DNA of 64,000 nucleotides from Tribonema minus (lineage: Eukaryota > Sar > Xanthophyceae > Tribonematales > Tribonemataceae), in assembly GCA_017506865.1 (NCBI GenBank), contig JAFCMP010000525.1, positions 248,001 to 312,000 on the forward strand, read 5' to 3'. This document shows positions 21,959 to 55,014 of this stretch, piece after piece. Under the pieces are notes generated by a model. The model was given only the letters and a program-made list of their open reading frames with translations. It did not search any database and was not told the DNA's origin. Every line of letters starts with the position of its first letter. Position 1 is the first letter of the stretch. Made by a program: the position numbers and the translations under genes.

Positions 21959-23058
21959 CTGACGTTGGGCAAAAAGCTTTAGGCCTCAGTGTTGCTCTTC
22001 ACACGCAATTAGGAACTGGCACTTCACTGAGGCTTTAACTGCCACTCAGTACTGAAGTCTAACTGGAGCATTGTAAACCTGATCCGCCCCTAAGCCGTAT
22101 CATAAATGCAAGTCCATGCGTACAAGCGACTGTGCAGGCATGTTGATGATCCTTCGGCGCCGACATTTCAACCAGTGCGGTTCTCAGCCACTGGTAACCT
22201 TGATGAGGGGCATCGCAAGCAATGTGTGGCAGTACACAACAAGGCAGTCATTGACCCAAGCCTGTCTGGAAAAGGGGAGCAGCGCCCCTCTTGCAAAACG
22301 CGAGGTGCAAACACACAGGAACTGACCTGCAACAGTAACGCTGGCACCATCACCATGAACAACACAAGTGCTTTGATGGAAACTGAGGCACCTATATGAG
22401 TCAATGTTATCAAATGGCGAATGCGCAAAAGATAAAAAAGAAGCGCAAATCATGATGCAGGACTCCAGTGTACATATTGCTTGCGCTGGCACACCAGATA
22501 GCTCTGTCACAACCTTAAGGTTGTTGCTCACAAGCCCTACACAGGCAGACAGCTCCTGCTGCACAGCTGTCAACGGTGCGCATGACAAGCAGCCCACACA
22601 GTCCAACACCTGCGCTGACATTAGGTCGTGACGTGCATACAACCAACACAATAACCCCAAGGGCAATTCACGCCAGATAGCATGCACAACGCAGTTTTTA
22701 CATACAGTCTCTCAGAATCTCACCACACATCAGCGGTGGAGGCGCCCAACGACAAGTCAGCAGACTGCCTTGACTGCTTCAATCTTCAGGCTTGCTACCG
22801 GTCTGCAAGCCGCGGTCTATAGATACCCCCTTCACACACAACGCACATCCCGCCGCGCACAGTCACACGCCACACACGACTGCGCACATACCAGTGCACC
22901 CGCACTGCCATGTACTCAGTGCAGCATCACAAAGACAGCAGACAATCATGCTGTCACCTCAAGCACTGCACCTATGCCCACCTCCCATCCCCCCCCCCCC
23001 CCCCGCCCCCAGCCCCCTCGGGGCTGCTGCTCTCCAGGCTGCCCTCCAGCGCGACCTT
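21959..23058. other. Intergenic region
   Basis: About 1.1 kb with only short unconvincing frames and a poly-C run near 22989-23004. It lies downstream of the minus-strand gene at 23059-23805. Confidence 0.5.
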
Positions 23059-25790: not shown

Positions 25791-25830
25791 AGGGTTAGGG
25801 TTAGGGTAATCCTAACCCTAACCCTAACCC
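25791..25830. repeat. Head-to-head interstitial telomeric repeats
   Basis: AGGGTTAGGGTTAGGG is followed after four bases by CCTAACCCTAACCCTAACCC. G-rich repeats pointing right meet C-rich repeats, which is the orientation expected at an end-to-end chromosome fusion. The block is also a near-perfect hairpin. Confidence 0.9.
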
Positions 25831-27021: not shown

Positions 27022-27648
27022 TCAGCGCCCCCCCGGGCGCCCCAGCCCCCCCGCCTGCGGCCGCGGCAGCCCCCCCGCCCCGGCGGGGGACTTGGACGCT
27101 GCGCCGCCGCCCCCCGCGCCCCCCCCCCCCTTGGCCTCCTTCTTGAGGCGCGCCAGCTCGCGCTTGAGCTCGCGGAGCGCTGCCTCGCTGCTGCCGCCGC
27201 CGCCGGCCGCGCGGCACGCCTCGCCGAGGCGCAGCGCGCGCTCCGTGGCGAGCGTGTGCGAGGCGGCGGGGCTGATGCAGATGAGCGTCACCACCTGCGA
27301 CACGCGAGGGTGGGGCGAGAGCGGTTTGATGCTGAGCGCTGAGGTGCTGTGCCGCGCGTGTTGTGAGGGAGTCGAGAATTGTGGATGTGCAAGCGCCGAG
27401 GTGCTGTGATGAGGAGTGCTGCCGTCTACAGTGCGACAAGGGGGATGTACATGCTCCAAAACAGTCCGGCAGATTCACTCGAAGGATGTAGCTGTACTAA
27501 CGCGCACAGGCCTGCTGCTGTGCGGAAATGATACCTCATTGGTGAGCAGACCGCGAATCTTACCCCCAATCTACAACGGCAGCCGCAGCGCTGACCACTA
27601 CGCCCCGTCTACAACGCAAAGAGAGTGTGCACCTCTGTTTGGCATGCG

Positions 27649-27702
<54 letters not shown>

Positions 27703-30700
27703 CTGTTCCATGCGCGCACCTTTGCTGTTTCCGTGAGGAACTCGCGCAGCGCGCGCGCGACGCCCACCGCGGCGTCGTCAGCGCCAACGCCGCTCTCTTC
27801 GTCTACGCGCGGCAGCTCTGTTGCTGCTGCCGCGTGCGCGCTGATGATGCGCGACAGGGCCCCCCCCCATCGCTCCGACTGCAGCCGACAGCGCATTGGT
27901 AAGGCAATGGGTAATGACGCGGTTCAGGGCCGGAGCAAAGGGCACGTGGGAGTTATGCTGTTATAAATGGAGGTTGCATGAGTGCGCACAAATGGGGCAC
28001 GTACATGGGCAAGGCGGCAATGTGATTACGTGCCCATACAACACAATATCCATGACATCATGCAGCAGTTTCCAGCGAGACGAGCCAGACAGAAGGTTAC
28101 CAAGATCGAGGTGGCACATCGCGACAGTGGCACGATGAGAGCGCGATACTTTCGACGCGCGACGTGCAACAGTATAAGTTGCTGCCATTGCTGGCACGCC
28201 CCTTGAACCCTGCTCATAGATCCGCAAGTACATGCATACCTGCGGCGGCGGCGGCGCCAGCAGCGCGCACGCGAGCGTCCCCGTGCGCGCCTCGCACAGC
28301 GTTCCAGCACACGAAGTACATCGATACGAGTTGCTGCCATTGCTGGCACGCCCCTTGATTCCCGCCAACAGATAGAAGTACACAAGGTATATACTTCTAT
28401 ATACCTGCGGCGGCGGCGGCGCCAGCAGCGCGCTCGCGAGGGTCCCCGCGCGTGCCTCGCCGGACCCCCTGTTGAAGCCGAAAAATACTTCAGGTGTACA
28501 TATACATACCTGCGGCGGCGGCGGCGGCGCCAGCAGTGCTCTTGCAGCGCAGCCGCAAACATACCTCAAGTATACATACTCCGCGAAGTACGTACCTGCG
28601 GCGGCGGCGGCGCCAGCAGCGCGCACGCGAGCGTCCCCGCGCGCGCCTCGCCGGACCCCCTGTTGACGCTCTCGCAGCGCAGCCGCACGAGCGCGTGGTC
28701 GGCGCCTGCTTTGAGGCTCGCGAGGGCAGCGCTCAGCGCCTGAACCGCGCCTTGCGGCGTCTGGAAGGCGCGCCAGGGGCCTGAGACTCAGAGCGTGCAG
28801 AGGGTAAGGAGGGGGTGGGAGGGGGGGGATGAGTCGCGGAGACTAGGGCAGGAGACGCGCGCGATGGGCGGTTTGCAGCGGTGTGGCCTCTCGCTGCTGT
28901 CCCCAAACGCGTGCTGGAGGTGAGTCGAAGGGCAGTGCTCAGCCGCGCGGCGCGCCGGATGTTTGGCAGCGCATTCGCAATGCACAACGCAGGAGGAGCC
29001 GGGGCTGGCAAAGCTGTGCGTACACCGCGAGATGCTGTAAATTGGCTCGTAGCAGTACATGATGGACAACAAACAATCTGGCATGGGCAGGGTTGAGGTT
29101 GTGACTTTGAATGCAGCGCTCAGGGCGTAGGCCGGGCCCTACGCCACGCGGACTGTGTGTGCGATGAGGTACAAGTAATTGCCAGAGCAGCACGTGCCCG
29201 GGCGTATGGCTTCTGCATATGAGCAGCACGGGGCAGCCCTCAGGGCCTGAGCTCGGCCTCCCAGCATCGCGATTGCTTGACGTATGTGGCAGAGCATCGG
29301 CAGATTGCGGGTGCAGCGTTGGGTTTAAGACTCGCACACATGAGAGCAGCTGAACAGTGGTGTGTGATCCTCAACTCACCGCCAGCTTGCGAAAGCATCG
29401 GCGGGGCTTGCGGCAGTCAATGAGGCGCCTGGTGCTGCGGCGTCTGAATTGCGCATCAGACCAGGGAGCCGACCACAGTATGAATGCAAGCGCAATTGGG
29501 TACGTGAGTTGCTCGCACATGTCAATGCGTGTGAGCAGGCGCTCGACACGAGCACAAGAGCTGCATCTCCTGCGTTTTTCATACGTAAGGTGTCCGCCCC
29601 GCAAGCGGAAGTAAATAAATCACTTGCTTCACACCCGGGGGCACTCTTCCTTATCCCTGCCAAAATGCATTTACATTACCAAAGTATTCGCAATCGCACA
29701 TGATCATCATTGCATCAGATCATCAAGCGCTAGGCTTGTACATACATACCTGGAGGCGAGCCGCTCTGCTCGGTGGAAGCTGGCGGGGGCGCACCCCCCA
29801 GCGCTGCTGCCGCATCAGCCGGCGGCGGCATCTGATCCGGCTCTGGCGGCGCAGGCGGCGGCAGCAGATCTACTGGTGGCGCACCCGACGATGACAGGGC
29901 TGTGACTGAAAGCGATATGGTGCTGCAACACTGCGCATCTCTGCGAAGAACGGGAAGGCAGGGCAGGTGTGAGGGCGGGGGGGGGTGGGGGGGGGGGTGA
30001 GGTTTGTCAGCACAAGTTCACTTTGGCATGCGGCTGTTGCAGGAGGTACACGCTGCGTCGGAAGGCCAATCTGAGCGGCCCCCGCGTGCTCAGCGTCACT
30101 GTACTCATTCTTCAGCAATACGTGATCAAGCATGTCCTGAACGAAAGCGAGGCATGCAGTGAAGGGCCAGCCACAGACCTTACAGGCAACCCCGCCACCC
30201 GCCTCATCAGCAAAGAGCACTGCTGCTGGCGCCTGAGCACTCACCGCAGCAGCACCAGCACCAGCAGTAGCACCAGTACTAGCAACGCAGCAGCCAGCAA
30301 CAGAGGAGACTCGCTCCGAGGCGGGCGCACATCGCACGCCACCGTGTCTCCACACCTTGTTTACATCTTGCTTACCATGTACCTACCTGCCCACACTTCG
30401 TTTCTCATCCTCATATCAAGTCTTTACCCTATCCCGTCTCTCACCTGTCCTGCACAATCTGAAACACGTCTCTGAACAGCCGCGGCAGAAGCCCCGCCCC
30501 CGGCTTGAGGGCGGGGAACGCTGCCGGCGCGTCGGGCGCCGGCGCTGCGGCTGCGTCCTTGCCTTTTGGCTTGGGAGAAGGGGCCCCCGAGTCCGCCGGC
30601 TGCATGTAGGGGGCGGGGAGCAGGAGCTCGTCAGCTCACATTGAAAGAATAAAACTGCCAATAACAGTGGCATTCGACCCTCGGAACCGCGTTATGCCGG

Positions 30701-33700
30701 CTGTGCGGAGAGGGTGGAAACCGCGTTATGCCGGCTGTGCGTAGAGGGTGGGGAGCAACACGTTGTCAGCTCAAATCGAAAGAAGACTGCTACCAATGAC
30801 AGTGGCGGTCGACCCTGAAAACCGCGTCGCGCCTGGCAGCGCGCCGTGACATCATCATCACTCTCACAAACCCCGGAGCACGGTTGCTGGTTCGGCGTGC
30901 GCGACACACGTGGCAGCGCCCGCGCACGCTCACAACGCAGAATATCCACGCTAGACCGCATCGCACGCAGCGCGCATGCCAGCAGCCGACGCGCGGCTCC
31001 CACTGCACTGCAATCGCAACCACAAGCAGCGCGCAAAACACGCAACGCTCTCCTCCTGAGCATCGCGCGTGCGCACGCCGCTCCCACTGCGCTGCGACTA
31101 CCGCTGCGCGAACAGCGCACACAACCGCGCGACGCTCTTTCAACGGCGGCGCCAACCACTCACCGCAAACAGGCCGGCGGCGACGGTCGCGCTGTCGCCG
31201 AGTGCCGCCGTGCGCCGCCCCGCGCCGTCCGTGCCGGCGGCGACGACGACGCACGCGTTGTGACCGTCCGCGAGGCTCGCGCCCAGGCCGCTCAGCTCCG
31301 CGTACAGCTCGCGCTGCGCGGCGCCCACGTCGTCGCCGGCCTATGTTTGAGACAGCACAGCGGGGGCCGGGAGAGGTGGGTGTGTTGCAGCGGCGGGCTT
31401 CACTGCATGACATGGAGTGCGGGCTGGGCACTGGGGTGTAAACGGATGCGCACGTGCGTGGAAGGCGCAGGCGTGCAGCTCCGCGTACAGCTCGCGCTGC
31501 GCGGCGCCCACGTCGTCGCCGGCGTGTAGGCGGTGGGTGTAGAGCCGGTGGGTGTTGTAGTGAGCTTCGCTGCATGACGTGGAGTGAGGGCTGGGCACAG
31601 GGATGCGCACAAATGGATGCGCGCGTGCTCGCGCTGCGCAGCGCCCACGTCGTCGCCGGCCTATAATCGCGACAGCGCGGCGCGAGGGAGGAGAGGTGGA
31701 TGTTGTAGTAGCGGGCTTCACTGCATGATGTGGAGTGCGGGCTGGGCACTGGGGTGTAAGTGGATGCGCGCGTGCGTGGACTCCGCAGGCGTGCGGCGCA
31801 AGTGCGGTGCCGATCGCGAGGCTGCTGCTTAGGGCGCCGGGGCCGACGTGCCGTTCTCCGCTGCGCTGTCAGCGGTGCATAATCGGTGCTGCTGCGCTAT
31901 CAGCGGTACGTATGATTGCTGCCGCGCTGCAAGGTGCACATCAGCAGCGCTACGATGCATGCAGCGCAATCTGCACTGCCATGACACAGTGCGGCAAGGC
32001 GCAATCTCGCCACTGCCGCGTGCGTCATGGCAGGTCACAGCAGTGCTGTCTGCACGGCCAGGGGCCGACATCCCAGGCGCCGGCGCTGCCGCCGCCGCCG
32101 CCGCCGCCATGCGCGCTGTCCAGTGGCGCCGCAGCACTCGCCGTACATGACTGCACCAACGCTCAACAGCAATGCAGATTGGCGCGTGCACCCGCAAGCG
32201 ATTCGCCGCAGCACACCACGATAACACTTGAACTATCAATTAGTCTCGACAATTGATAGCTAGCACATTGTATTGCTTCAAAGATGAAGCGACCGAGTCG
32301 CAATGGTGGCTGATTGTAAATCAGTTGGCAACACTTCCTACCTGCATGATGAGGTCGACCTCCCAGGCGCGCTTGCCGCCGCCGCCGTGCGCGCTGTCGA
32401 GCGGCGCCGCAGTACTCGCGGAACACCGCTGACGTGACCCACGACAGCGACGCAGTGTTGTGATATGCACCCACAAGTGCCTCACTACAGCACATCACGG
32501 CAACGCCCACCTGCAAAACCAGGTCGACCTCCCACGCGCGCTTGCCGCCTCCGCCGCCGCCGCTGTGGGCTCTGTCGAGCAGCGCCACGGCATGGCGGCC
32601 GTCGTGCACGCACGGCTTAATGGTGGCTGATTGTGAATCAGTTGGTAAAACTTCCTACCTGCACGACGAGGTCGACCTCCCAGGCGCGCTTGCCGCCGCC
32701 GCCGCTGTGGGCGCCGTCGAGCAGCGCCACGGCGTGGCGGCCGTCGCGCACGCACGCCTCGCGCCCATCCGCGCGCTCCGACGCCGTGAGCGGCCGCAGC
32801 CGCGCCATCAGCCGGCTCTGCCCCCTCATGTCCTCGACCTACGGGTGGGGTGGGAGTTTTTTTGGGGGGGAGGGGGGGGGCGGGGGTATGTGGGTGGGAT
32901 TTGCGGTCGGCGAGGAGGTCGGGGAGGGGAGTTTCAAGGCGAGGGCAAGGGTGTGCGCGCGTTTACTTGAAAGGTAAGCGTGAGGAGAATCTGCAATGGG
33001 CACTTGAAGTGCATCGTGCATGCGGCACCAGCATGAAGTTGGTAGCGGCACTGAAGCGTGCACAAGTTCAAGTGGTGACGCCCGCTGCGCTGTGTCATAC
33101 TAGCGGTGTCGACTGCATGCAGGACACCAGTGTACGCCGAGCAGCTGCATCTGCACCGGCGCACACCTTCCGGGCGGCAGCCTTCTTCAGACCCCTCCCA
33201 CGAGGATACGCACCCTGATGTTGAGGTGACACTTTCTGGCTCTGCCTAATTGGGCAGCTCGCACGCACAGCGCACGAGCACCTGCCGACTCCCCCCCTTC
33301 CCCCCCTACACAAGTGCGTCACATCGACACACTCCTTGAAATATGTTGAGCCCGCAGCTGCTTCTCACCCGCCGCACCGCCCCGCCAAACCCCCGGTGCC
33401 AGCGCTCATGTGTACGCTACAGCGCCCCTCGGCTGATTTAAAGAATGGCATTGCTCTGCACTCGCATGTCCACACCCCCTACTTAGATGTCGCATGTTGC
33501 AGTGCGCTTGATGCTGACCCATCAGCAATCACAGCCGATGTACAGCTCCACCCAAGCAATATTTGCCACCAGGTCAACACCTCCATGTTTGAGGTCCCCG
33601 TGCAGCAGGTTTTTTAAAAACTGTCTTCATCGTTTGGAGGGTAGCTTTGTATGTCACTTGTATGAGCAACTCGGCAGCTCTGAGCAGGCCCGCCCGAGCT

Positions 33701-36700
33701 CGACGCATGCCTACATACCTACCTGGTTGTGCAGCTGCGCTGCCCTGTCGGACTCGCGCTTCGCGGCGGCGCGCAGCGTATCCGCATATGCCCTCGTTTC
33801 TGCGTGTTCTACCGCGCGTGACGTCGACCACTCGACAGTGGCTGGGCAGCTCTATGATCAAAACCAGACCAGCTCCAAAATCAATTGTTTGCACAAAACA
33901 GAAGTCCTCAGCAGCCCCGCTCAAAGCTCGACGCGCGAATACCAACCTGGTTGTGCAGCTGCGCGGCCCTGTCGGACTCGCGCTTGACGGCGGCGTGCAG
34001 CGCGGCGTTGGCGGCCTCCGCCTTGTGCGCGTCCGCGAGCTCGTCCTGGTGCGCCTTGATCCACGCGCGCGCGGTCTGCAGTCGCGCGCGACGCAAGGCG
34101 CAAAGCAGAGCGGATGACGGGAGGTCAGGGCTGGCTGCGCAGTCTTCGCGCCGCCGCGCTGGCAGAGGCTGTGTACTTGAGGAAGTATGGATCGTGCAAG
34201 AAGCTGCGGAGCAGGGCATACATCGAGTCCTGGTGCGCCTTGATCCACGCGCGCGCGGTCGATTCGCGCACGCAGTCACGTGCAGCGCGGAAACGGTCGA
34301 CACAGTAGGCGGTCGCGGTTGGGCGTGCATACGACGAAACGGCGGCGCGCAGGTCGAGGCTCAGAATAAACGACGCGGTGAGCTGCGATGCGGAGCGCTT
34401 GGCATAACCGCTGCTGACACATGTTGTGAGCATGCGCTCAATGGCTTGCGCACCGCGCGCATGCGGCCCTGTGCCGCACAAATGCGAGAAGGATGCCGCT
34501 GTGAAGCTGATGCCAACCCTAACCCCAACCCTAACCCTAGAGCATCCACAGTACCAGGTTATGCGTGCACGACTCTCCAGGACACCGTAATTGCTTGAAG
34601 ATTTTGCCATGTACGGCAGTTGAAGTTCCATGCAACGTGCAGGTCAGCCCAACTGGCACGTACAGCGCTGACCAGCTAGTCTTTGCTGGCTTGCAGTTTG
34701 TGTTCTTGGCCAGCGTCCATGTGCAGGTCATGGCAGGCGCGAGCAGACCCTGACAACGCAGCCCTCCCAATACAGGGTGTGTGTGTCAGAATATGGACTT
34801 CACTCACGCTCCAGTGTCTGATTCAGCATCAGCAATCATCAGTTGTCTTGAACGCGATAGCGTACTTGCGACCCCTTTTTGGTTATGGCCGTTACATGAC
34901 GGTTACATTTCTGTGTGGGGCATGTAGGTATGCAGCACTCGCCTCCGTCTCGGCAGTGTCCTGAGCGATGGCGGTGCGCAGGGCCCTCTCCTCCTGCAGC
35001 GCCTCGGTCAGCTGCTGCTCCGACTCCGCCTCAAACTGCGCACGCAATTACGGTGAAATGTCATAGATGACTGGGATGAAGTCGTTACAAGGGAACGTGC
35101 GGCTGGCTGCGTGCCGAAGCGATGACATGTGGCAAATGATTCTCAGGAGAGGTCGAGAGGAAGCCGTACAGGTAGATGCTGTGCGTAGGAGACACTTGAG
35201 CTGCTGAAAAAGCACACGCCTCGTCAGCTGCTGCTCCGACTCCGCCGTGAGCTGCGCGCGCAATTACGGAGAGATACAGATGACTGGAATGGAGTCGTAA
35301 CAAGGAGTCATACGGGAACGTGCGGCTGCATGCCGCAGCGATGATATGCGGCACTGAGAGTTGAACTGAGAACATCGTTACACATCATTTTGTAAACACC
35401 AAGAAGCGCACATGGCAGGGCAGACAGACGCCAGCGCCTCGTTCAGCTGCTGCGCCACGCGTGCAGAAGCGATGACATGCGGCGAATGATGGCCACGTTA
35501 TGAGAGACTGAGAGGTACATGCTGTGCATGACAACCATTTGCACTGCTGACAAACATCGTTGAATATAATTCACAAACACCGAAAAACGCGTATGGTAGA
35601 ACCACGGACGCAGTTCCCAGTCTTGGGGAGAGGGGAGCGCAGCCGCAGCTAGCGCCGGTGCATCGGAGATGCAGTGTAGCTACTCAGCGCGCGCGGCGGT
35701 CATCCCCCTTAGGGTTAGAGTTAGGGTTAAATTAGGGTTAGGGTTAGGGTTAGGACCTCTGCCCGTGCGGCCAGGCATCAATCTTGCTGCATCGTGATAC
35801 AAGCGTCAGCAGTGTGTAGCTGCGCCCTTCACAGCACCTCCGCAAGACAGCAAGGCGAGCGCTCGGTGGCTTGCACAGCTGCGCAGCGGCAGCAACGACC
35901 AGCAGAAACGACCCTCCCGAAACGCCTTTGCAGCAGCGGCGGCAGCAGCGGTCTCTGGCCACTCTTGGGAGCCCGTCTGAGCGATGCTGCACTCACCTCG
36001 CGCAGCTGCTGCGCGGCGGCGTCGACCTGCGCCTAGGACTGCATAGACAGTGAGCGCTGTGGCTCGTACAGGCACGCAACTGCGGCAGCGGTCAGCGACA
36101 CTGGTCACGCATGCAGCCAGGCTGAGCACTGCCGCACTCACCTCGCGCAGCTGCTGCGCGGCGGCGTCGACCTGCGCCTAGGACATGCACAGACAGTGTG
36201 CGCTGTGGCTCGTACAGGTGCGCAGCTGCGGCAGCGGCAGCATCGGTCTCTGACCACTCTTAGAAGCCAATCCGAGCGCTGCCTTACTCACCTCGCGCAG
36301 CTGCTGCGCGGCGGCGTCGACCTGCGCCTTGGCGTCCGCCTGCATGGCGGCGAGCTCTACGTCCCACGCGCGCTTCGCCTCCGCGTGCGACTGCGATGGG
36401 GGGGGGGGGCAGTGCGCGACAAGAGTAGCTGTGTGAGAGCGGTGCATTTTTGGAGCGCGGGTGCAGCATCACGTGACGCTTGCGCATCGAGCCTTCACAA
36501 GGCTCTTGAGCAAAAGGGAATTGTTGCACTATTTATAAACTGTCTGCAGTTTGAAATAGTCATTAATTGTGGCGGACAGCATGCGACGGGAGTGGTACCG
36601 TAAGAGCGGCGCATCGTTGAAGGGGGGGGGGGGGGTAGCACCATGTGACGCTTGCAAATCGAGCCCTGACGAGGCTTGGCACAAGATTAACTGTTGCTGC

Positions 36701-39700
36701 GCAGTGCTTAGGTATGCGGGTTTGCCAGCGCTCTACTGTGGCAGTTGCCTGAGCCTGAAGGGAGCGCGTTTGGCGGTGATTGCAGTCTGAGAGTGGTTGA
36801 CTGGTGGGGGTGGTGTTGCGGAGAGGGTTAAGGTTAGGGTTGGCTAACCCTTGGGTTAGGGTTAGGTTAGGGTTAACCCCAACCTGGGGTTAGGGTTCGA
36901 CCCTAACATTAGGTTTAGGTTTAACTAGCCCTAACCCTAGCCCTAAGCAAACACCACTGCGAGGCCTGTTATCCCTAACGGGGGCTTGGTGGCTGTACAG
37001 CAGACATGCGGTTTGTACAATTTTGCAAAGGCCCTTTTGAGCTACTGCACAAATCTTGTCTTGTGTTAGTTGACATGTTACAGTCTGCTAGAAGCACCTT
37101 TCAAACAAGGTCTTGAGTGGTGCCATGTACTGAGAACGACCAAGGCCTGTTGTTGGTAGCCCTCACATGTGTGCAGCACCTCAAATTGCTGCTTCCCGCA
37201 ATTTTGAAGCTCCTGTGCCCTGACCAGACCATAACAATCACATATTTAGTGAAACTGATATGACCTGCAGCCTGGTGCACCCCCAACAGGCGTCACAGTA
37301 CTGCAAGCGGACTACACACTTTTAGTTGTACATGTATCTATGCAAGAAACACAGCCTGTCTGGACTGCTGTCCACCAACCAAGAACCCACCTGCTCAAAG
37401 CCCTCGCGTATGCGCTTGGCTTCCGCGGCGGAATCCTCCCGCAGTTTCTCGAGCCGCGCGCGCCTCTCGGTGTCCGCAGCCTTGCGCTTGCCCAGGGCCT
37501 CCTCGTGCGTCCCCCTGAGGCCATCGAGGGCTTCGCCGAGGTGCGCGATGCGCGCCTTCTCCGCAGCGATCTGCCATCGAGCATTGGAAGTCAGGACCGG
37601 TCGAAACGCGTGTCAGCACCATGCTGCGTTATGCCAGGCATTGGGAACTGTAAATTGACAAGGGATCAGACGCATTGACTTGACCATTCTGCCTACGTGA
37701 AGGCAGCAGATTCTCTGAGGCCCCGAGGGCTTGGCCGAGGTGCGCAATGCGCGCCTTCTTCGCCGCGATCAGCCAGCAAGCAATGAAAGCCGTGATTGAG
37801 TAATTGGTCATAGAGGTTGTCGGTAGCGCTTTGAGAGCGTGCAGCAGGCAGCAAGATTGGTGTCGCCTGCAAAAGCGGGGGGCGCGTTGCGCGATTCGAC
37901 CTGAGGCACTTCTCCGCGGCAATATGCCAGCAAACATTGAAAGCCATGCATGACCGGTCAGTGTTCCCGACAGCATGTCGCGCTACGTCGGGCATTAGAA
38001 AATGTGAACCGACTGCAGACAGACGCACGGCATGTCATTTTGCCCATGTGCTGGGGGCAGCAGATTTTCTGTGGCGCTTGATGCCAAGGGGGCTCCTTGC
38101 GGGGCCCCACCTGAGGCGCGTGAGGGCGCTGCGCACGGGCGCACCACCATGTGCAAATGTTAACTGCAGCAAGCCGCCAGAAGCAGCAGTAATTTCAATG
38201 GCGAAAGCAGAACCATACGATAACCACCCCTCGCGCAGAACACCGCTGAAATCTGCAGCGCATCGTTGCATACAAGACCTTCAACTTTCTGTGCAGCATG
38301 CTTCAGCTGCTCGATCACCTCTGCTCTGAGCTTGGCGACGCGCGACTCCAGGCCCTCGCGCTCCCGCTTCCACGCGAGCGGATCGCCGAGGCTCTGCTGC
38401 ATGCGCTCCTGCTGCGCCGCTGCGGACGCGGCAGCTGCCTCCGCTTTCACCAAGTCGGCCCGCGCCGTTTCGAGGTCTCTCTGCGGAGGCACGTCCAGCG
38501 ACGGCCGAGCACAAAGCCACGCCAAAAATATGATGTGGAGGCACGACCAGCGGCGGTGGAGCACAAAGTCGCACCAACAATATTATGTGCAGGCACGACC
38601 AGCGGCCGTGGAGCACACAGTCACACCAAACAACTGTGTGGAGGCACTGTCGGAACAGCAGATTTATAGAAGCCTGCTATTTCCTACGAGAGCCTGCTAT
38701 TTCCGACAGGCTCTCATAGGTCTGCTGGTCAGACAGGCACGACCAGCGGCGCGGCGGCGCAGTGCTACGCAACGTCACGCTGATTATCAGCGGCTGTCAG
38801 GGAATTCATATGAACCGTTGTAACTGATTCAGCATCCTCTTACAAACAGGCAGTAGGAGGGCTGTCTGCCACATATGGCGCAAGTCAGCATGCAGATACG
38901 AAGTGCCCCAGCATCGCTGTTTGCTGCCAGATTCGTTATAGTGTTGCAAGTTCGAAATTTAAATGCTCACATCGTAGTGACAGTTACAGCATGATAACTG
39001 CAAATATGCCACACTCGGGCCTACTCCTGAAGGCCATCATGCAGAACAGTAGCAGCAACTGCTTATGCTGGGAACTGTGTGTGCTGAGTCGTCGTTTCTG
39101 AGAACTACCACCGTGTCCAAAATTTCATGAATCAAAGCCCAGTCCTAAGCCGCAATTGGGTGCCATGCAATGTGAGTGAGCTGGCCGCCTCACTTGAATG
39201 TACCAACGACAAGGTATTCCTTGCCATCTGCCATACGCATCCAACTCCTGTGTCATGTAGGTGTTCGTTATCTTGAAGTGCCGCCCCCCCGCCCTGTTTG
39301 AGCCGTGGATCGCGTCTTAAAGTGTACGCGAGGTTATGTTAGACCGTACTGCTGGTGTGCAGCAGTACGGCCCTGGTGACACTCCTGCAGCACCCATTTA
39401 TAGAATTATGGAAGTTAATTGCAGTGCGCAACCGAAAGTACATGTACTGTCAATTTCTGTACCCGTTTGGGGGGTGTTGTGCACCTTGAGCTTGTCAGCG
39501 GCAGCCTTGCGCTCTGACAGCGCCGCACTGTGTGCCGCGTCTGCAGCCGTCATGGCTTCCTTGTGGGAAGCCTCTGTATCTTCTAGCTGGCTTTCCAGTT
39601 TCTGCGATGGCAGGCAGGAGCATACACAGAAGCAGATGAAACCGACGCTTGAGACTGCTTGCTCGACAAAGACCATTCACACTCGATGAATGCCCTGAAC

Positions 39701-42700
39701 TGCCAGTGATGAACTGTGGAGCACCTGCCCATGCACTTCAACATACATGTGACATGCAAGTGCTTGTAGTGCATAAAATTATGAAAAATCAGCCCAAAAT
39801 AAATGGTGAGTACATCCGATCCGAATGTGTGGGCGGACTTGTTGAAAGGTACTTCGAGCAGCAACTTAGATGACGTGAGCTCGACACTAATTCACAGGCC
39901 TCATTTATGTCGTATGATTCACAGTCACGATGAGTACGATCAACGAGTACTCAAGAACTACTTACTCCCGATAAATTTAAAATTTACACGAGCACTCGAG
40001 TTATGCTCTAGCTCAAATAAAAAATGTACAGAAGTACTGCAGTGTTATCCCTCTTACACTTGGAAATTCAAATGAGTGCGAGTGCTGCACTCGAGTACTT
40101 GACAATTACTAGAGCAGTCCACAAGTCCCATGAGCAAAGAGAGCCAAGAGTGCTTGAATGTCCAAACAAGCTTGATTTAGCTTTATTTTAAGCATGTTGT
40201 CTTCCTGGAACGAGAGTGCATCGTGCTTGGCAAGCTACAGCACTTGAAGTAATTCCCCAGGACAAGTTGTTCCTTCAAAGTACTCCTTTGAAATTTCAAA
40301 ATTATGCACGAGGGTACATAGTGCTCGTAAAATAATCATTTGAAATTAAATTGATGCACGAGTACTTGAGTACTAGTCCCGGTGAAATTGAAACTTCACA
40401 CACGAGTAAGAGGGTACTACTCCTGTGAATATTGAAAATCTACACGAGTGATAGAATGCTACTTCTTGGCTTGCAACGATTAGCACTCCTACTCCTTACT
40501 CCTTGCAAGTACTCATACTCGTCCTGACTGTGGTATGATTGCAGCCAAAAGCTGAGTGCCGTCACTCAAATGGCACAAAACGCCACCGGCCAATTTGAAC
40601 AGTACCGCAAATGAACATTTTAAAACACAGATCGCAACACAAATTATTGGCAGTTGCTGCACCAGCATGCGCAGCAGCATGTTGTACAGTACTACACTAG
40701 GTAACGACCTTGCAGGCGCAGGTGAATCGGCGACAACAGCAGCGCCTTGTCATCCTGCGCACGGCATGCCACAGCGCACTACACCAGCGACGAGTCCATC
40801 CGGCCCTGCTGCGGAGACCCCCAAAGGGGGTTCCAGCCACTTTTGCTGCCGCAGTGTGCTTCGCCCGCCTCGAGAGGGTATATACTCCTATATGTACTGC
40901 GAAGTACCGTATCTACTGCCCATTAATTGAAGCTCTGCAGCAGAACCACTGGCAACGCTGACGCGAGTGCATCGCGCTCCGGACGCCAGGCGCAGAGTGG
41001 CTCAAGCAGCTACAATACAAAAACTTGAGCAACTGCACGGCGCTTGAGACTTTCCGCCAGAGCAGCACAAAACGCGGCCGAAACCACCATAGAAATGGTG
41101 CGACACAAAACACGGCAGAAGACACAGCGCAACTACATACTGAGTGTGAGTATGAGTGACCCCACAGCACCCACCTTCCCAACCGCTGCCGCTGTGGCCA
41201 GCGCCGCGTCCAGGCCGGTGCCAGTGCGAACGTGCATGCGAGACTCTCCGGCGGGGCAACCCAAAACACGGGGCCACAGCACGGAAGTAGTGTGAATATC
41301 AGCGACCCAGCACTCACCTTCTCTGCCGCTGCAGCTGCGGCCAGTGCTGCGTCCAGGCCGGTGCCGTCAGAGCAACTCAGTAATGGGCAAACACACAATA
41401 AAACATAGCGAAACAAGCGTGAAGATGAATGACCCCGCAGCACTCACCTTCTCGGCCGCTGCTGCCGCGGCCAGTGCTGCGTCGAGGCCGGTGCCGGCCC
41501 ACGCCGGCCCCCCGGTGCCGCCGAGGGTGCGGAAGCTCGCCGCGGTGCGCATGATGCCAAAGGCGCTGGGCGGGCGCGCCAGCGTCTTGCCCACGCTGCT
41601 GATGGGGCGCGTCGTGCTGCGCAGCGAGAGGATACAATGTTGGTTGGTGTTTATACCTGAAATGTTTTTGACTACATGCATGCAGCGAGTACCAAGCAAG
41701 TATCAGTGGCGTTGGCGTCTTGCCGATGCTGCCGACGGGGCGCGTCGTGCTGTAAAGCGATTGGATGCAGTAAGTGGATTGCTGGTCGAGCCTGACATGT
41801 TTTCGTTCCATGTGCAGCGAGTACCAATGGCATTGGCGTCTTGCCGACGCTGCTGATGGGGCACGCTGTACTGCGCAGCAAGCGAGCGGGCGCAGCGCTT
41901 GCGGGTTACACTCTGTACCTGATGTGTTTTCCGTCATATATGCAACAGGTGCTATGAATGGCGTGTTGCTATGCTACTGCCGTGGACAGCGCACGCGCGC
42001 GGTCAGCTGTACTGCCACGCCAGTGCACGATTCTGATTCAAATCCTAATTGTCAAATTAGCGATAGTCACCTGTGCTTCCGTGCCAGAGCGTTCGACAGC
42101 CGCTGCTACTACTACCGCGAAGTTTGCACAAGCCAAAAAGGACCGTAGCGCACGATGCACTAAGCCTTACACAACATGCACACTGAAGTGATGAAGCCCC
42201 ACAGTACTGAAATGAGGAGGCCCAAAACTGCTGGCTGGCTGATCCTCCTGCAGGCTTGCTGTTGTGTGCCATAGTGTGGACTTCACATGTGGACAATATT
42301 TGACCACCGCAGTCACAGAGCGGAAAATCACAACACCACTGGCAGCGCTCAACTGGGAGCAGCATCAGCACTGACACGGCAGCAGCAGTCCACCGGCGCG
42401 CGGCGATTCTCGCGCACAGCACGACTTTGAAAGCGCAATCGACACACAAGCGGCACCGGTCGCAATTTGCTTGACAGCGTCCAGCAGGCAATGCATGCAG
42501 CAGCGCATGCATCAGGACAAATCGGTGCTCTGGTTGATGATGCGTTGCATGACAAGCAGCACATGACACCGTCCCAACAACGCGCGACAACTTTGACAGG
42601 TTGCGGCAGCAGTGACAGCGCTCACCCGTGCGCGGCGGCCGTAGCAGCCATGGTCGCGGTGCTGCGCCGGTCCGCGCCCTTCGGCGACCGCGGCGCCCCC

Positions 42701-43054
42701 CCGGCTGCGCTCGCCCGCTGCTGCAGCGCCGTGTCGATGCCGTCTATGTCCAGCGTCTGCACTGCCTCTTCTTCATCGGCGCTGCCGCCGCCGCCGCCAC
42801 CGCCGCCACTTCTGGAAACATCGTCAGAGTGGCGCTTGGCAGCAGCGGCGGCGGCGGTGGCGGCGTCGGGCGGAAACAGCGGCGCGGCGCCGCCGAGCGC
42901 CGCGGAGACTTCCGCCACGGTGTCGAGGCAGTGCTCGACGTAGAGGCCCGCGAAGAGCGCGGCGTAGGCATCGGGGGCGGCGTCCTCGAGGAGGGTGTCG
43001 ACTTCGAGCGCGCGCAGGGGGTCCACGTGGCTCAGCAGGGTTATGAGCTGGGAC
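27022..43054 (-). CDS. Kinesin-14-like protein: coiled coil plus C-terminal motor with degenerate nucleotide-binding motifs (5' end not found)
   Basis: Exons: 43054-42626, 41616-41448, 39601-39485, 38480-38274, 37570-37391, 36390-36292, 35035-34943, 34075-33947, 32838-32659, 31340-31164, 30599-30445, 29899-29750, 28760-28596, 27878-27720, 27294-27022; small exons at 30109-30052 and 29443-29380 are tentative. Joins from 43054 to 30445 and from 28760 to the stop are in phase. The first exon codes an Ala/Asp-rich region; exons 41616-33947 form heptad-like coiled coil. The neck-motor junction AAQLHNQVEDMRGQSRL...ARLRPL matches the kinesin-14 pattern 'LHN..-.LRGNIRV..RVRP'. Next come ADGHNACVVVAAGTDGAGRR (kinesin: LDGYN.C.FAYGQTGSGKT), GLLPRLFRDVF, ADHALVRLRCES (switch I region, SSRSH missing), TLACALLAPPPPQ (where VDLAGSE is expected), and ICISPAASHTLATERALRL (kinesin: CVSPA...ETL.TL). 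The catalytic Lys and Ser/Thr of the P-loop are replaced by Arg-Arg, so ATPase activity is doubtful. The intron after 34943 appears to start with GC. Confidence 0.8.
27650..27698 (+). repeat. (CA)n microsatellite
   Basis: About 24 CA units in the last intron of the kinesin-like gene; it explains the His/Thr and Val/Cys open frames there. Confidence 0.95.
28240..28555 (-). repeat. Three partial copies of the 3' edge of the motor exon at 28596, with donor site
   Basis: Copies begin at about 28240, 28404 and 28510. Each carries the donor junction (plus-strand TACCTGCGGCGGCGGCGGCG) and 45-75 bases of exon 28596-28760. The third also has a piece from deeper in the exon (GCAGCGCAGCCGCA). The intronic parts are duplicated too: GTTGCTGCCATTGCTGGCAC occurs at about 28177 and 28331. 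Confidence 0.85.
31290..31800 (-). repeat. Tandem copies of the 5' edge of the P-loop exon, with acceptor region
   Basis: The exon start (plus-strand GCGGCGCCCACGTCGTCGCC) ends at 31340 in the real exon and recurs at about 31472-31527 and 31628-31664. Each copy is followed by the same intron sequence (CTGCATGA..TGGAGTG.GGGCTGGGCAC), giving three units of about 150-190 bases. Confidence 0.85.
32040..32610 (-). repeat. Partial copies of the 3' edge of the motor-start exon at 32659, with donor site
   Basis: The donor edge (plus-strand GAGGTCGACCTCCCAGGCGC) of exon 32659-32838 recurs at about 32349 and 32519, and more degenerately at about 32068. The intron sequence TGGTGGCTGATTGT.AATCAG is duplicated with it (32302 and 32621). 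Confidence 0.8.
33717..34272 (-). repeat. Copies of both edges of the neck coiled-coil exon on its two sides
   Basis: Exon 33947-34075 is flanked by a copy of its donor edge at about 33717-33780 (CTGGTTGTGCAGCTGCGCTG) and a copy of its acceptor edge at about 34228-34272 (TGGTGCGCCTTGATCCACGC). Confidence 0.8.
34514..34540 (-). repeat. Interstitial telomeric repeat (CCCTAA)n
   Basis: CCAACCCTAACCCCAACCCT plus further units, in the intron between exons 35035-34943 and 34075-33947 of the kinesin-like gene. Confidence 0.8.
35041..35465 (-). repeat. Tandem copies of the 5' edge of the coiled-coil exon at 35035
   Basis: Exon 34943-35035 ends with plus-strand GTCAGCTGCTGCTCCGACTC..; this edge recurs at about 35212-35265 and, shortened, at 35431-35460. 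The intron parts between them (GGGAACGTGCGGCTG, GAAGCGATGACATG) repeat with a period near 190 bases. Confidence 0.8.
35709..35754 (+). repeat. Interstitial telomeric repeat (TTAGGG)n
   Basis: Six to seven TTAGGG-like units with small variations, in the intron between exons 36390-36292 and 35035-34943 of the kinesin-like gene. Confidence 0.9.
35990..36335 (-). repeat. Two extra copies of the 3' edge of the coiled-coil exon at 36292, with donor site
   Basis: CTCACCTCGCGCAGCTGCTG followed by GCGGCGGCGTCGACCTGCGCC occurs at about 35994, 36140 and 36288 (period ~146). The last is the real exon edge, where the frame continues. In the other two the exon copy ends in CTAGGA. Confidence 0.9.
36824..36951. 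repeat. Mixed-orientation interstitial telomeric repeats
   Basis: About 125 bases of TTAGGG and CCCTAA blocks that switch orientation several times (GGGTTAGGGTTAGGTTAGGG; GGTTCGACCCTAACATTAGG). They lie in the intron between exons 37570-37391 and 36390-36292. Confidence 0.9.
37705..37935 (-). repeat. Copies of the 5' edge of the coiled-coil exon at 37570
   Basis: The exon edge (plus-strand GAGGTGCGCGATGCGCGCCT and following) recurs at about 37715-37782 and in shortened form at about 37910-37935, each with the following CAGCAA/ATTGAAAG intron sequence. Confidence 0.8.
38484..38650 (-). repeat. ~50-bp tandem repeat at the acceptor side of exon 38480
   Basis: GGAGGCACGACCAGCGGC..GGAGCACA.AG.C.CACCA recurs three to four times directly beyond the acceptor. 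It includes copies of the CCTCCGCAG-type splice region. Confidence 0.8.
40265..40480 (+). repeat. Degenerate ~47-bp AT-rich tandem repeat
   Basis: Four units share TTTGAAATT..AAATT.TGCAC, then CACGAGTAC and .GTACT.CTCC. A fifth related piece lies near 39965-40010. The base composition is markedly more AT-rich than the surrounding intron of the kinesin-like gene. Confidence 0.65.
41160..41880 (-). repeat. Copies of both edges of the Ala-rich exon 41448-41616
   Basis: Donor-edge copies lie at about 41170-41225 and 41312-41367 (CTCACCTTCTCTGCCGCTGC and similar). Acceptor-edge copies lie at about 41720-41757 and 41836-41878 (GGCGTCTTGCCGA.GCTGC and following). The real exon is in the middle and is the only copy open across its length. 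Confidence 0.85.
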
Positions 43055-46839: not shown

Positions 46840-47424
46840 AACCGGTGACGACCCGACATGTCAACTGCCGCTCATGGTGGACGTCACCTGCTTCGAGGCA
46901 CAGGTGGCGTCACGGGCGCAGAAGACTGCAGCAGACCCCGAGCGCTGCTGTTGCGACCAAGAGGCCGCCAAGACTACCCACTATTCTGGTCATTATGATC
47001 AGAATTGCTAGAAACTTGCCACTTTGGCAATAGGGTCATTTGCAGCATCGGGGAGCAGGGGCGGAAGCTGCTGGAGGCTGTGGCGACGGAGTATGCCAGC
47101 AGGATGTCAGTGCCCGGAGGAGCGCGCCTTAAAGCTCTCAAGGGCATCGCCCTGGCGCGCTTACGCTCGGCTCTGTCGGCAGCGCTCCACATGGCGTACT
47201 CTGGCCGTGTGATGACACACATGGCAGAACCCAGGGGGGGGGGGCGTATGGAGGAGGACGTAGGGGAGGATCCCGAGATGCCATTTGGCGGCAGCGGCGT
47301 TTGAGTGGTTGTCGTTACGACACTTTCAGAGTGTCATACGACATGTAGATTCCGTACAGCTAGATGCCAATCATCTGGGCTTTCTCGCGCCAGCGAGAAC
47401 TTTAAATTTTATTAAAATAAAAAG
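46840..47424 (+). mobile_element. 5'-truncated copy of the non-LTR retrotransposon (copy 1)
   Basis: Matches the last ~190 codons and 3' UTR of the full-length element at 13053-18580: LMVDVTCFEAQVAS, then the TEYASRMSVPGGA and MAYSGRVMTHMAE segments, the stop near 47302, and AATAAAAAGTACCAA at the end. It has coding damage around 47010-47040 and small differences throughout, so it is older than the full-length copy. Truncation from the 5' side is typical of LINEs. Confidence 0.9.
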
Positions 47425-47430
47425 TACCAA

Positions 47431-47775
47431 ACTCGACGGAGTATGCCAGCAGGATGTCAGTGCCCGGAGGAGCGCGCCCTAAAGCTCTCAAGGGCATCGC
47501 CCTGGCGCGCTTACGCTCGGCACTGTCGGCAGCGCTCCACATGGCGTACTCTGGCCGTGTCATGACACACATGGCAGAATCCAGGGGGGGGGGGCACATG
47601 GAGGAGGACGTAGGGGAGGACCCCGAGATGCCATTTGGCGGCGGCGGCGTTTGAGTGGTTGTCGTTGCGACACTTTCAGACTGTCATACGACATGTAGAT
47701 TCCTTACAGCTAGATGCCAATCATCTGGGCTTTTTCGCGCCCTGAGCGAGAATTAATAAAAAGTACCAAACTTCA
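47431..47775 (+). mobile_element. 5'-truncated copy of the non-LTR retrotransposon (copy 2)
   Basis: Only about 70 codons plus the 3' UTR remain. It starts at ACGGAGTATGCCAGCAGGAT right behind copy 1 and ends in AATTAATAAAAAGTACCAA. It is nearly identical to the full-length element, so it is a younger insertion than copy 1. Confidence 0.9.
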
Positions 47776-53439: not shown

Positions 53440-55014
53440 ATGGCGCACTCGAGGACGGCTGAGCACACGTTATTGGACCCAGTGCTCGTCTCATGTATTC
53501 TGGCGTTCCTGCGTGCGTCTTTAATGCTGAGAAGCACTAGCCGCACCTTTAACAGCGCCATAGATCTGCGAGCCGCAGGGGAGAAGCACGCGACGGTAGC
53601 TGCGGACGCTGTAGCGAGCACGAGCCTCATTCATTGGGCTGTAGGCATCGGCCTGGATATTCGAAAAGCGACGTGGTCTTGCGTCAAGCGAGGCGAACTC
53701 GAAGGGCTACGGCTCCTCTACGCCCTATTCCACTTTCCGCTACATAGCGGATACTCACAAACAGCGGCCGGGAGGGGACATCTAGCGGTGTTACAGTGGC
53801 TGCGACGGCAGGGGTGCCGTTGGAGCGAAGACACGTGCAGCCTCGCCGCCCGAGGAGGGCACATGGAGGTGTTGCAGTGGGCGCATGCCAACGGGTGTCG
53901 CTGGAACAAAGAGACATGCCGCGAGGCTGCGGACCGGGAACCTAGATATGCTCAAGTGGGCGCGCGCCAATGGATGCCCATGGGGCAGGGCCACTGGCCG
54001 CGGAGCCGCCTACAGAGGGGACCTCGAGATGCTGCAGCGCACGCCAACGGAGCCCCGTGGGACGAGGAGACGTGCAGCGATGCTGCATGGACCGGAAGGC
54101 TCGAGGCGCTTCAGTGGCTGCGCGCTTACGGTTGCCCCTGGGACGAGACCACGTGCAAGATGGCCGCCTCGCACGGGTACCTGGAGGTGCTGCAGTGGGC
54201 CCGCGCCAACGGGGCCCCGTGGTCCGAGCACGTGTGCAGCTTTGCTGCCGGGAACGGGCACTTCGCTGTCTTGCAGTGGGCCAGGGCACACGGCTGCCCG
54301 TGGAGCGCAGAGGCATGCAATCGCGCTGCGGCAGGCGGTCGCCTCGAGCTGCTGCAGTGGCTCAGGCACAACGGGTGCCCCTGGGACGAGTCGACGTGCG
54401 CCGGCGCGGCGCGAGGCGGCCACCTCCACGTGCTGCAGTGGGCGCGCGCCAATGGGTGCCCCTGGAACGAGGGCATGTGCAGCGACGCGGCGCGGAACGG
54501 TCACCTCGAGCTGCTGCAGTGGGCGCGCGCCAACGGCTGCCCCTGGAACGAGATCGTGTGCAGCAGCGCGGCGCAGCACGGTCACCTCGAGCTGCTGCAG
54601 TGGGCCCGCCGCAACGGGTGCCGCTGGGACGAGAGCACGTGCAGCGCCGCGGCGTCGCGCGGCTCTCTGCCTGTGCTGCAGTGGGCCCGCGCCAACGGCT
54701 GCCCGTGGAACGCGGACACGTGCAGGTGCGCCGCACGGTGCCGGAGTCTCGAGGTGTTGCAGTGGGCTCACGCCAACGGCTGCCCTTGGAATGAGGACGT
54801 ATGCAGCGGCGCGGCGGAATTCGGGCATCTCAAGGTGCTGCAGTGGGCGCGTGCCCACGGCTGCCCGTGGAGCGAGGCGACGAGCGCTGCTGCGGCCCGA
54901 CAGCGACGGTGGCGCGTGCTGCGGTGGGTGCGCGAGAATGGATGCCCATACGCACCGGGCAGCAGCGGGTCCGGTGAGTCAGACGGCAGCGAGGATGACT
55001 TTGACGACTGGTAG
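53440..55014 (+). CDS. F-box-like / ankyrin-like repeat protein (about 524 aa)
   Basis: I choose ATG 53440 (AAGATGG context) because the recognisable protein begins there; an in-frame extension to 53239 is open but low-quality. The N-terminus (LLDPVLVSCILAFLRAS, LRSTSRTFN) resembles an F-box. After a linker, about a dozen ~34-residue repeats of the type 'GHLEVLQWARANGCPWNE.TCS.AA' follow, a divergent ankyrin family expanded in stramenopiles, haptophytes and their large viruses. The C-terminus is acidic (SDGSEDDFDDW). A likely role is a substrate-recognition scaffold, by analogy only. One repeat at about 53930-54040 is read in the wrong frame. In another frame the proper sequence (LDMLKWARANGCPWG) is present and the main frame is restored afterwards, so two compensating shifts or assembly errors are likely. 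Confidence 0.75.
   Translation: MAHSRTAEHTLLDPVLVSCILAFLRASLMLRSTSRTFNSAIDLRAAGEKHATVAADAVASTSLIHWAVGIGLDIRKATWSCVKRGELEGLRLLYALFHFPLHSGYSQTAAGRGHLAVLQWLRRQGCRWSEDTCSLAARGGHMEVLQWAHANGCRWNKETCREAADREPRYAQVGARQWMPMGQGHWPRSRLQRGPRDAAAHANGAPWDEETCSDAAWTGRLEALQWLRAYGCPWDETTCKMAASHGYLEVLQWARANGAPWSEHVCSFAAGNGHFAVLQWARAHGCPWSAEACNRAAAGGRLELLQWLRHNGCPWDESTCAGAARGGHLHVLQWARANGCPWNEGMCSDAARNGHLELLQWARANGCPWNEIVCSSAAQHGHLELLQWARRNGCRWDESTCSAAASRGSLPVLQWARANGCPWNADTCRCAARCRSLEVLQWAHANGCPWNEDVCSGAAEFGHLKVLQWARAHGCPWSEATSAAAARQRRWRVLRWVRENGCPYAPGSSGSGESDGSEDDFDDW

Follow-up and report, generated by a model that had tools for sequence, protein, structure and literature searches.

How introns lengthen is an open question, and their growth is usually attributed to transposons. 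A kinesin-like gene in the window (the whole 64,000-nucleotide stretch of Tribonema minus DNA analysed here) raises this question anew, as its introns contain partial copies of the edges of its own exons, lined up in tandem ladders. What produces such ladders, do their rungs ever contribute to the protein, and are exon edges preferred as sites of duplication?

Exon-edge ladders in the kinesin-like gene and elsewhere

The exons of the gene were read from open frames and splice sites (Table 1). A homologue is known from Phaeothamnion confervicola (P0001; E 6.2e-34; 42% across 17% of the query length), and the joined C-terminal exons give a Pfam Kinesin match at E 1.9e-4, which lies under the curated cut-off. 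Twenty-eight edges (14 donor and 14 acceptor) were examined, a copy being scored as a rung if at least 20 of 28 positions matched when anchored on the splice site. This identified 18 clear rungs at 10 of the 28 edges, on eight exons. The tandem pairs are also visible in a self-BLAST of the window, where the strongest pair of every ladder (10 in all) has an E value between 5.9e-10 and 7.1e-66.

Table 1. Kinesin-like gene of the window, its exons and the repeats at their edges
Feature	Position	Strand	Rung splice sites and remarks
Part of the kinesin-like gene with ladders	27140..43054	(-)	delimited by open frames and splice sites
Exons used, first eight	42626-43054, 41448-41616, 39485-39601, 38287-38480, 37391-37570, 36292-36390, 34943-35035, 33947-34075	(-)	
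Exons used, other seven	32659-32838, 31164-31340, 30445-30599, 29750-29905, 28596-28780, 27720-27878, 27140-27294	(-)	outer boundary of 27140-27294 not fixed
Donor-edge ladder, exon 41448-41616	41143..41448	(-)	41318, 41175
Acceptor-edge ladder, exon 41448-41616	41616..41882	(-)	41749, 41870; AG kept in both
Intron-side repeat at acceptor of exon 38287-38480	38485..38647	(-)	52-bp period; no exon part
Acceptor-edge ladder, exon 37391-37570	37570..37990	(-)	37769, 37923; neither keeps AG
Donor-edge ladder, exon 36292-36390	35930..36292	(-)	36142, 35997
Acceptor-edge ladder, exon 34943-35035	35035..35353	(-)	35251, single clear rung
Acceptor-edge rung, exon 33947-34075	34075..34260	(-)	34259; 34/34 aligned bases identical; AG lost
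Donor-edge rung, exon 33947-34075	33654..33947	(-)	33723
Donor-edge ladder, exon 32659-32838	32302..32659	(-)	32511, 32342
Acceptor-edge ladder, exon 31164-31340	31340..31797	(-)	31523 (AG lost), 31660 (AG kept)
Intron-side repeat at acceptor of exon 30445-30599	30595..30827	(-)	135-bp period; almost no exon part
Donor-edge ladder, exon 28596-28780	28177..28596	(-)	28510, 28405, 28240

These findings confirm the ladders described in an earlier, sequence-only reading of the locus as partial exon edges, splice sites included, that lengthen the introns and are not due to chance. Its listed copies at the donor edges of exons 28596, 36292 and 32659, at acceptor edge 31340 and on both sides of exon 41448-41616 were all recovered. 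The one exception concerns acceptor edge 35035, where a single copy is clear and the second one claimed, at 35431, is merely a 25-bp match (13 of 28 positions) and was left uncounted. The rungs of exons 37391-37570 and 33947-34075 come in addition to that list. The count of laddered exons, given as at least nine, comes down to eight with clear rungs, two more (38287-38480 and 30445-30599) having intron-side repeats only.

The pattern extends to four more genes of the contig (five with the kinesin-like gene; two of the five, "plastid" and "SAM/IQ", consist of ab initio exons only and bear guessed names). Ladders were also present in 5 of 5 kinesin genes selected solely by their number of Pfam exon hits, blind to ladders. 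Over all curated genes, 15 of 63 candidate copies fell below 20/28 matches and were excluded from the rung counts. Successive copies in the curated ladders are spaced by a median of 158.5 bp (interquartile range 142-187, n = 48), with a range of 86-408; the period proposed earlier was roughly 105-190 bases. Some rungs were predicted as exons by the ab initio gene finder, which was tuned on the window's kinesin gene, so that its accuracy on that gene is in-sample. Ladders are in this respect an annotation trap.

Tandem repeats can in principle be misassembled, and an artefact of this kind had been named as a possible refutation. No positive sign of it was found; the copies differ from each other by about 10 to 30 percent, with indels, and lie on several contigs, making the chance of an assembly artefact practically negligible.

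Splicing and decay of the rungs

The rungs could be genuine alternative exons or splice sites, adding segments to the protein or exchanging them. Both the deposited T. minus dehydrogenase (P0002) and its Chrysoparadoxa orthologue (P0008) join the real exon directly to the next and skip five rungs. Likewise, P0001 reads ...KQLHNQIEDMKGR... over kinesin exons 33947-34075 and 32659-32838, with the rung absent in a by-eye comparison. Thus, in the dehydrogenase, the one gene with a deposited protein, the copies are not the genuine exons that the sequence-only reading had allowed for, nor, judging by that protein, do they form a new exon and intron in the mRNA as in the potato RdRp case discussed below. 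Duplication of a whole exon with both splice sites, as in mutually exclusive exons, does not apply either: the inspected rungs stop inside the exon, and the exon part measures 2-33 codons in 60 copies. Moreover, AG is absent from 6 of the 18 acceptor rungs in the curated genes, and a repeated core strand or helix in the inositol monophosphatase or dehydrogenase should disrupt the fold. On the other side stand the exon calls of the gene finder, the rungs of exon 36292, which begin after an AG and are in frame to the donor, and, in the first gene set, a bias of rung-versus-rung differences to third positions (see below). Taken together, these data make a coding role very improbable. To judge from a deposited protein model and from homologues, the spliceosome appears to keep to the sites adjoining intact exons. 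Decoy sites are nevertheless on offer, as had been claimed: donor copies in the curated genes carry GT in 28 of 30 cases and GC in the other two, and 12 of the 18 acceptor rungs keep AG.

Sequence divergence points in the same direction. In repeats crossing an exon edge, 2055 of 2277 ungapped exon columns are identical (0.903) as compared to 4264 of 5396 intron columns (0.790), and the exon part is the more identical one in 41 of 46 repeats. This better preservation of exon columns indicates that the real exon is constrained and the copies mostly are not. Changes at codon positions 1/2/3 number 50/47/64 when private to a rung, 11/7/27 when shared and 3/2/12 when private to the real exon, a pattern that identifies the functional exon as the constrained branch and, for rung-private changes, argues against coding use. 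The rungs therefore resemble non-functional snapshots of the exon edge. Two observations count against this explanation. The ladders show no age gradient with the youngest rungs next to the exon, the nearest rung being more alike than the farthest in 6, less alike in 10 and tied in 1. In addition, the substitution divergence of 0.210 in intron and 0.097 in exon columns gives a ratio of 2.2, higher than the approximately 1.6 expected if only the real exon were constrained.

This excess could reflect gene conversion, with the real exon (or an allele or cDNA) refreshing the exon part of the rungs. In the donor ladder of exon 36292-36390, at least the final 40 exon bases are seemingly identical across all three copies, beside a poorly aligned intron part; rung 31523 matches in 48 of 48 exon columns against an intron identity of 0.65, and rung 34259 shows full exon identity (Table 1). 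In the first gene set, rung-versus-rung comparison yielded a context-corrected third-position ratio of 2.34 (95% 1.85-2.88), where neutral rungs predict 1.0 to about 1.75, and rung-private changes alone were distributed 34/26/47 (P = 0.05). These values had raised the idea of coding selection on the rungs, an idea weakened once five extra genes were added: the ratio fell to 1.99 (1.41-2.53) overall, the new genes by themselves giving 1.14 (0.54-1.92). The loss of the excess in these genes also speaks against conversion, as does the fact that constraint on the real exon by itself predicts most of the exon-intron contrast. Some of the statistics are suggestive of gene conversion or of coding use in the past; conversion as the general explanation is, in our judgement, distinctly unlikely.

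Repeats at exon edges

Edge enrichment was measured against a null in which tandem duplications are placed uniformly in the shorter, pre-duplication intron, about a quarter of the clusters being then expected to cross an edge. For the strict set, 7 of 43 introns were removed by hand because their sites or edges were doubtful; one inositol monophosphatase intron, which conceals a missing exon, was also left out, as were three Pfam-defined introns where the profile has a gap. The acceptor of dehydrogenase exon 4 was set at 23050, following the deposited protein, in the masked and strict edge tests and at 22993 in computing the rung, spacing, codon-position, coverage and Kolmogorov-Smirnov (KS) figures; the shift hardly alters the totals (42 to 43 of 53 unmasked, 19 of 41 masked both ways).

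When exons were included in the search, 36 of 44 clusters in the strict set crossed an exon edge, against 11.3 expected. When exons were removed, 15 of 33 clusters still reached an edge (7.6 expected, P = 0.00185), with 10 at acceptors (3.6 expected) and 5 at donors (3.9 expected). Since donors are near expectation in this test, much of the donor focus arises because exon sequence remains recognisable longer. Edge enrichment is real, about twofold once this longer visibility is discounted, and lies mainly at acceptors. The enrichment of repeats at splice junctions that had been proposed as a check is present in this 43-intron sample, and the claim that duplication starts repeatedly at junctions is supported in part, donors being close to expectation and acceptors not. 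Earlier tests have been superseded or set aside. With ab initio exons, 32 of 189 edges of the 264-kb contig fell within a repeat copy (18.2 expected), and 21 of 160 (13.0 expected, P = 0.023) when the kinesin gene was omitted; curated exons replaced these. Simple nulls take no account of the cutting of a crossing unit at the exon and gave larger enrichments, with 71 of 147 pairs where 12.2 were expected and 19 of 41 clusters where 1.2 were; a 40-nt trimming control shares this flaw.

Part of the early simple-null enrichment thus shrank under the fairer null, and one may ask if any edge preference is needed. Uniform tandem duplication, combined with longer visibility of exon-bearing copies, would account for the donor figures and for the flat to low coverage by intron-only repeats at the donor end (0.14-0.25). 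Divergence in exon parts is about half that in intron parts, which prolongs the detectability of crossing copies. Such a uniform process does not account for the acceptor excess, which in the full set amounts to 13 against 4.7 expected, nor for repeat coverage being 0.418 in the last 300 bp of introns and 0.244 in the first 300 (P = 0.035), nor for exon extents that are shorter than uniform (KS P = 0.0025). We consider it rather unlikely that edge preference is zero.

Conversely, exon edges might be true hot spots of tandem duplication, if DNA breaks there owing to some feature of chromatin, transcription or splicing, such as a paused polymerase, R-loops, the drop in GC from exon to intron or a nucleosome that straddles the edge. 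Consistent with this possibility are the persistence of the edge excess with exons removed, the narrow, nucleosome-like spacing of the copies, the GC content of 0.68-0.71 in exon flanks versus 0.54-0.57 in introns, and the density of clusters per kb, at 0.82 for curated introns and 0.83-0.93 for two spliced stretches versus 0.09-0.24 for four retroelement-rich stretches. The latter may merely be younger, however; the donor data fit poorly, and the acceptor preference was not repeated in the strict blind set (donors 3 against 1.2 expected, acceptors 2 against 1.1). Hot spots are therefore a possible but doubtful explanation. A more specific version, in which junctions and above all acceptors attract nucleosome-sized duplications in this lineage and introns accrete rungs from both edges in a splicing- or chromatin-coupled manner, is put forward with low confidence; if true, it would constitute an engine of intron growth that continually supplies decoy and dual-use splice sites.

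Proposed mechanism and comparison with known systems

Our preferred reading is that local tandem duplications of about 160 bp, produced by break repair and tolerated since the intact exon remains, probably build decaying ladders in introns. The sequence shows that the introns of this alga undergo such duplications frequently. Where the unit reaches across an exon-intron border, the intact exon would stay attached to one copy, and the second, with 30-100 exon bases and a splice site, would land within the intron. Because the spliceosome would continue at the sites beside intact exons, the insertion should be nearly harmless: the intron lengthens, the extra copy decays and repeated rounds build a ladder. 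The duplications most likely stem from breaks or opposed nicks that are filled in and rejoined, as suggested by five young adjacent pairs that overlap by 0, 3, 4, 2 and 6 bp (at least 88% identity and 50 columns, near-adjacent; none is a kinesin rung of the window, where joins are too decayed). Telomere-like inserts did not behave as markers of such joins: 7 of 16 lay no more than 20 bp from the end of a repeat (5.7 expected, P = 0.34), and 2 of 19 no more than 60 bp from an intron end (2.2 expected). The apparent focus on junctions would combine geometry, removal of within-exon duplications, the longer recognisability of exon sequence and a residual acceptor excess, which, like the short exon extents, a uniform process leaves unexplained.

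The ladders suggest one route of intron growth that leaves the protein unchanged. If introns owe their length to repeated duplication at their own edges, this growth becomes datable rung by rung, every rung being a copy of a constrained exon that carries its own time stamp, and the standing stock of decoy donors and acceptors is material from which alternative splicing and intron sliding can draw. The ladders also offer a natural test of why an almost perfect site 150 bases away is passed over by the spliceosome.

Introner elements are dispersed, mobile families. The ladders resemble them in being repeated DNA that composes intron sequence but, in the one ladder checked, are not a dispersed family: a genome search with 28240-28700 returned the ladder itself and two short matches (59 and about 80 bp; 79-83%).

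The sequence-only reading knew of no named process that predicts this pattern, yet related ones have been published. Fill-in of break ends by CST-Pol alpha-primase yields small tandem duplications, and insertions below 100 bp are the common class in humans (PMC8355091). These, too, are direct copies lying side by side whose joins share few bases or none, and thus a plausible source of units, although the Tribonema units are longer (about 160 bp) and a role of this enzyme in them would be putative. In the model of intron gain by AGGT tandem duplication (Rogers), exon sequence is duplicated and an intron created (PMC3443670, PMC2891723). Local duplication that copies splice-site sequence and spares the protein is common to both, but the Tribonema unit is part intron (5396 intron beside 2277 exon columns in the crossing repeats) and its intron pre-exists, rather than the copy of an exonic unit being the new intron. 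Polyubiquitin genes use dual-specific AGGT splice sites in whole coding monomer units that are spliced (PMC10809524); Tribonema copies also carry AG|GT, potentially donor or acceptor, but the units are partial and the sites are candidates. The potato RdRp gene provides a single case of tandem duplication across an intron-exon boundary, with the new intron used in mRNA according to RNA reads, and the same study describes an 83-bp duplication within an intron from which no change resulted (PMC4974935). As in potato RdRp, the duplicated unit spans the exon-intron border in the great majority of strict Tribonema clusters (36/44); unlike it, the Tribonema duplications are recurrent and multi-copy, involve both kinds of edge in many introns and apparently place the copies within an existing intron.

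Copied splice junctions in the kinesin-like gene and elsewhere

The sequence-only reading had proposed that introns of the kinesin-like gene carry rows ("ladders") of partial copies of exon edges ("rungs"), each including the splice site. These ladders are real: when a rung is counted if at least 20 of 28 positions match around the copied splice site, the gene contains 18 rungs at 10 of its 28 splice edges, on eight exons, a copy proposed at 35431 matching too weakly to be counted. Across all curated ladders the spacing of successive copies is regular (median 158.5 bp, interquartile range 142-187, n = 48).

The pattern extends beyond one gene and recurs in ten. On the same contig (C522), a dehydrogenase exon has five donor-edge rungs and the inositol monophosphatase gene has a crossing copy at each of three donors examined. 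When five genes are counted together with the 5′ portion of the kinesin gene, copies crossing the splice site occur at 12 of the 29 donor edges and 12 of the 28 acceptor edges (one acceptor edge in the latter count was corrected afterwards). Five further kinesin genes from other contigs, for which the number of Pfam exon hits was the sole criterion, each have at least one exon border crossed by repeats.

The xanthophyte Tribonema minus belongs to the PX clade of ochrophytes; its assembly comprises 158.2 Mb in 554 contigs. With at least 132 exon-level Kinesin matches in the whole genome, the kinesin family is large. The joined C-terminal exons of the kinesin-like gene match Pfam Kinesin at E = 1.9e-4, which does not reach the curated cut-off. 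In Phaeothamnion confervicola, a homologue found at E = 6.2e-34 (42% over 17% of the query) has matches to Microtub_bd (7.1e-12) and Ank_2 (3.6e-15). The motor exons are absent from the genome's listed PF00225 matches, which marks the motor as diverged. One of them has HNACVVVAAGTDGAGRRTA at the expected P-loop position and is missing the usual GKT/GKS motif; the Phaeothamnion homologue reads HNICFLVAGGVGAGRSFT there. The motor may be unable to hydrolyse ATP. Another exon of the gene ends in a GC donor (GAG|GCGAGT), not GT.

Repeat clusters at intron edges

The edge test covered 43 introns, of which 36 with sound splice sites formed a strict set; under the null, a tandem duplication starts anywhere that leaves an exon intact, within the shorter pre-duplication intron. 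When exons are included, the null expects 14.0 of the 53 clusters to cross an edge, and 43 do so (strict set, 36 of 44 against 11.3). Because exon sequence aids detection, the search was repeated on introns alone: 19 of 41 clusters reach an edge against 9.7 expected (P = 0.001), and 15 of 33 against 7.6 in the strict set (P = 0.00185). The edge excess is therefore about twofold once visibility is discounted. In the strict set donors lie near expectation (5 against 3.9; acceptors, 10 against 3.6), and the donor part of the excess may be visibility alone. In the strict introns of the five kinesin genes picked without regard to ladders, 5 of 10 clusters reach an edge against 2.3 expected (P = 0.043); the acceptor preference was not found among these 10 clusters (three donor, two acceptor).

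Intron-only repeats cover about 23% of intron bases, with a coverage of 0.418 in the last 300 bp versus 0.244 in the first 300 bp (P = 0.035). Cluster density is 0.82/kb in the tested introns versus 0.09-0.24/kb in four retroelement-rich-looking stretches of the contig, a difference that may partly reflect younger sequence there.

Other features are listed in the table. The 43 curated introns (49.9 kb) contain telomere-like TTAGGG/CCCTAA runs, in both orientations, at 19 loci spread over 14 introns; the four retroelement-rich stretches, 151 kb in all, contain two. The intronic runs show no tie to ladder joins or exon edges. YMDDANVRTG and NLTKSRALPGRGH recur in the predicted proteins of the reverse-transcriptase-like frames, judged by eye to be putative retroelements. 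The ankyrin-like array, whose tandem signal exceeds any other in the window, was left out of the enrichment tests.

Features of the window and contig C522 (window coordinates unless stated)
Feature	Position	Strand	Detail
Telomere-like runs	35709-35754, 36856-36925, 25795-25828		
Reverse-transcriptase-like frames	contig ~198-216 kb and ~261-265 kb (the latter window 13487-17696)		several, near-identical
Ankyrin-like repeat array	53764-54950		LQWARANGCPWNE type
Young tandem pair outside kinesin gene	7464-7936		235 bp at 98%
Young tandem pair outside kinesin gene	47084-47772		350 bp at 91-96%
Motor exon, P-loop position	31164-31340	-	
Exon with GC donor	34943-35035	-	end at 34943

Sequence divergence of the rungs

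In crossing repeats, identity over ungapped columns is 0.903 in the exon part versus 0.790 in the intron part, the former being higher in 41 of 46; this direction would be expected were the real exon constrained and its copies not. Changes private to one rung number 50/47/64 at codon positions 1/2/3 and are mostly unconstrained; those common to rungs amount to 11/7/27 and those private to the real exon to 3/2/12. By this split, the constraint lies with the copy that remained functional; the rungs look like snapshots of a functional exon edge taken at different times. Speaking against this reading, rung-to-rung differences in the first gene set lie mainly at third positions (ratio 2.34, 95% 1.85-2.88), exceeding the limit of about 1.75 that we estimate for neutral snapshots; the five extra genes alone give 1.14 (0.54-1.92), and all genes combined 1.99 (1.41-2.53). 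Gene conversion, or a past coding role of some rungs, is a possible cause.

All 30 donor rungs have GT or GC and 12 of 18 acceptor rungs retain AG; since rungs were partly selected by those positions, these counts carry no claim of selection. In the deposited dehydrogenase protein, possibly itself a prediction, and in its Chrysoparadoxa homologue, the real exon joins VHTMSPGM/VHTLSPGM directly, the rungs being skipped.

Origin of the ladders and published parallels

The most likely course is the following. Local duplications of about 160 bp would insert adjoining an intact exon, probably through repair of broken or nicked DNA, because the joins of five young adjacent pairs overlap by 0-6 bp. 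Splice sites adjoining intact exons would stay in use, so that the event would be harmless; the intron would lengthen by this route while the inserted copy decayed, and repeated rounds would build a ladder. The core of the phenomenon is ordinary, namely tandem duplication and survival of harmless events. That core does not account for the acceptor edge excess, the narrow unit size and a preservation of exon parts better than expected. No description of exon-edge ladders or comparable intron growth was found in the literature searched, mostly outside subscription journals; the nearest published case there is a tandem duplication spanning an intron-exon border in potato RdRp (PMC4974935).
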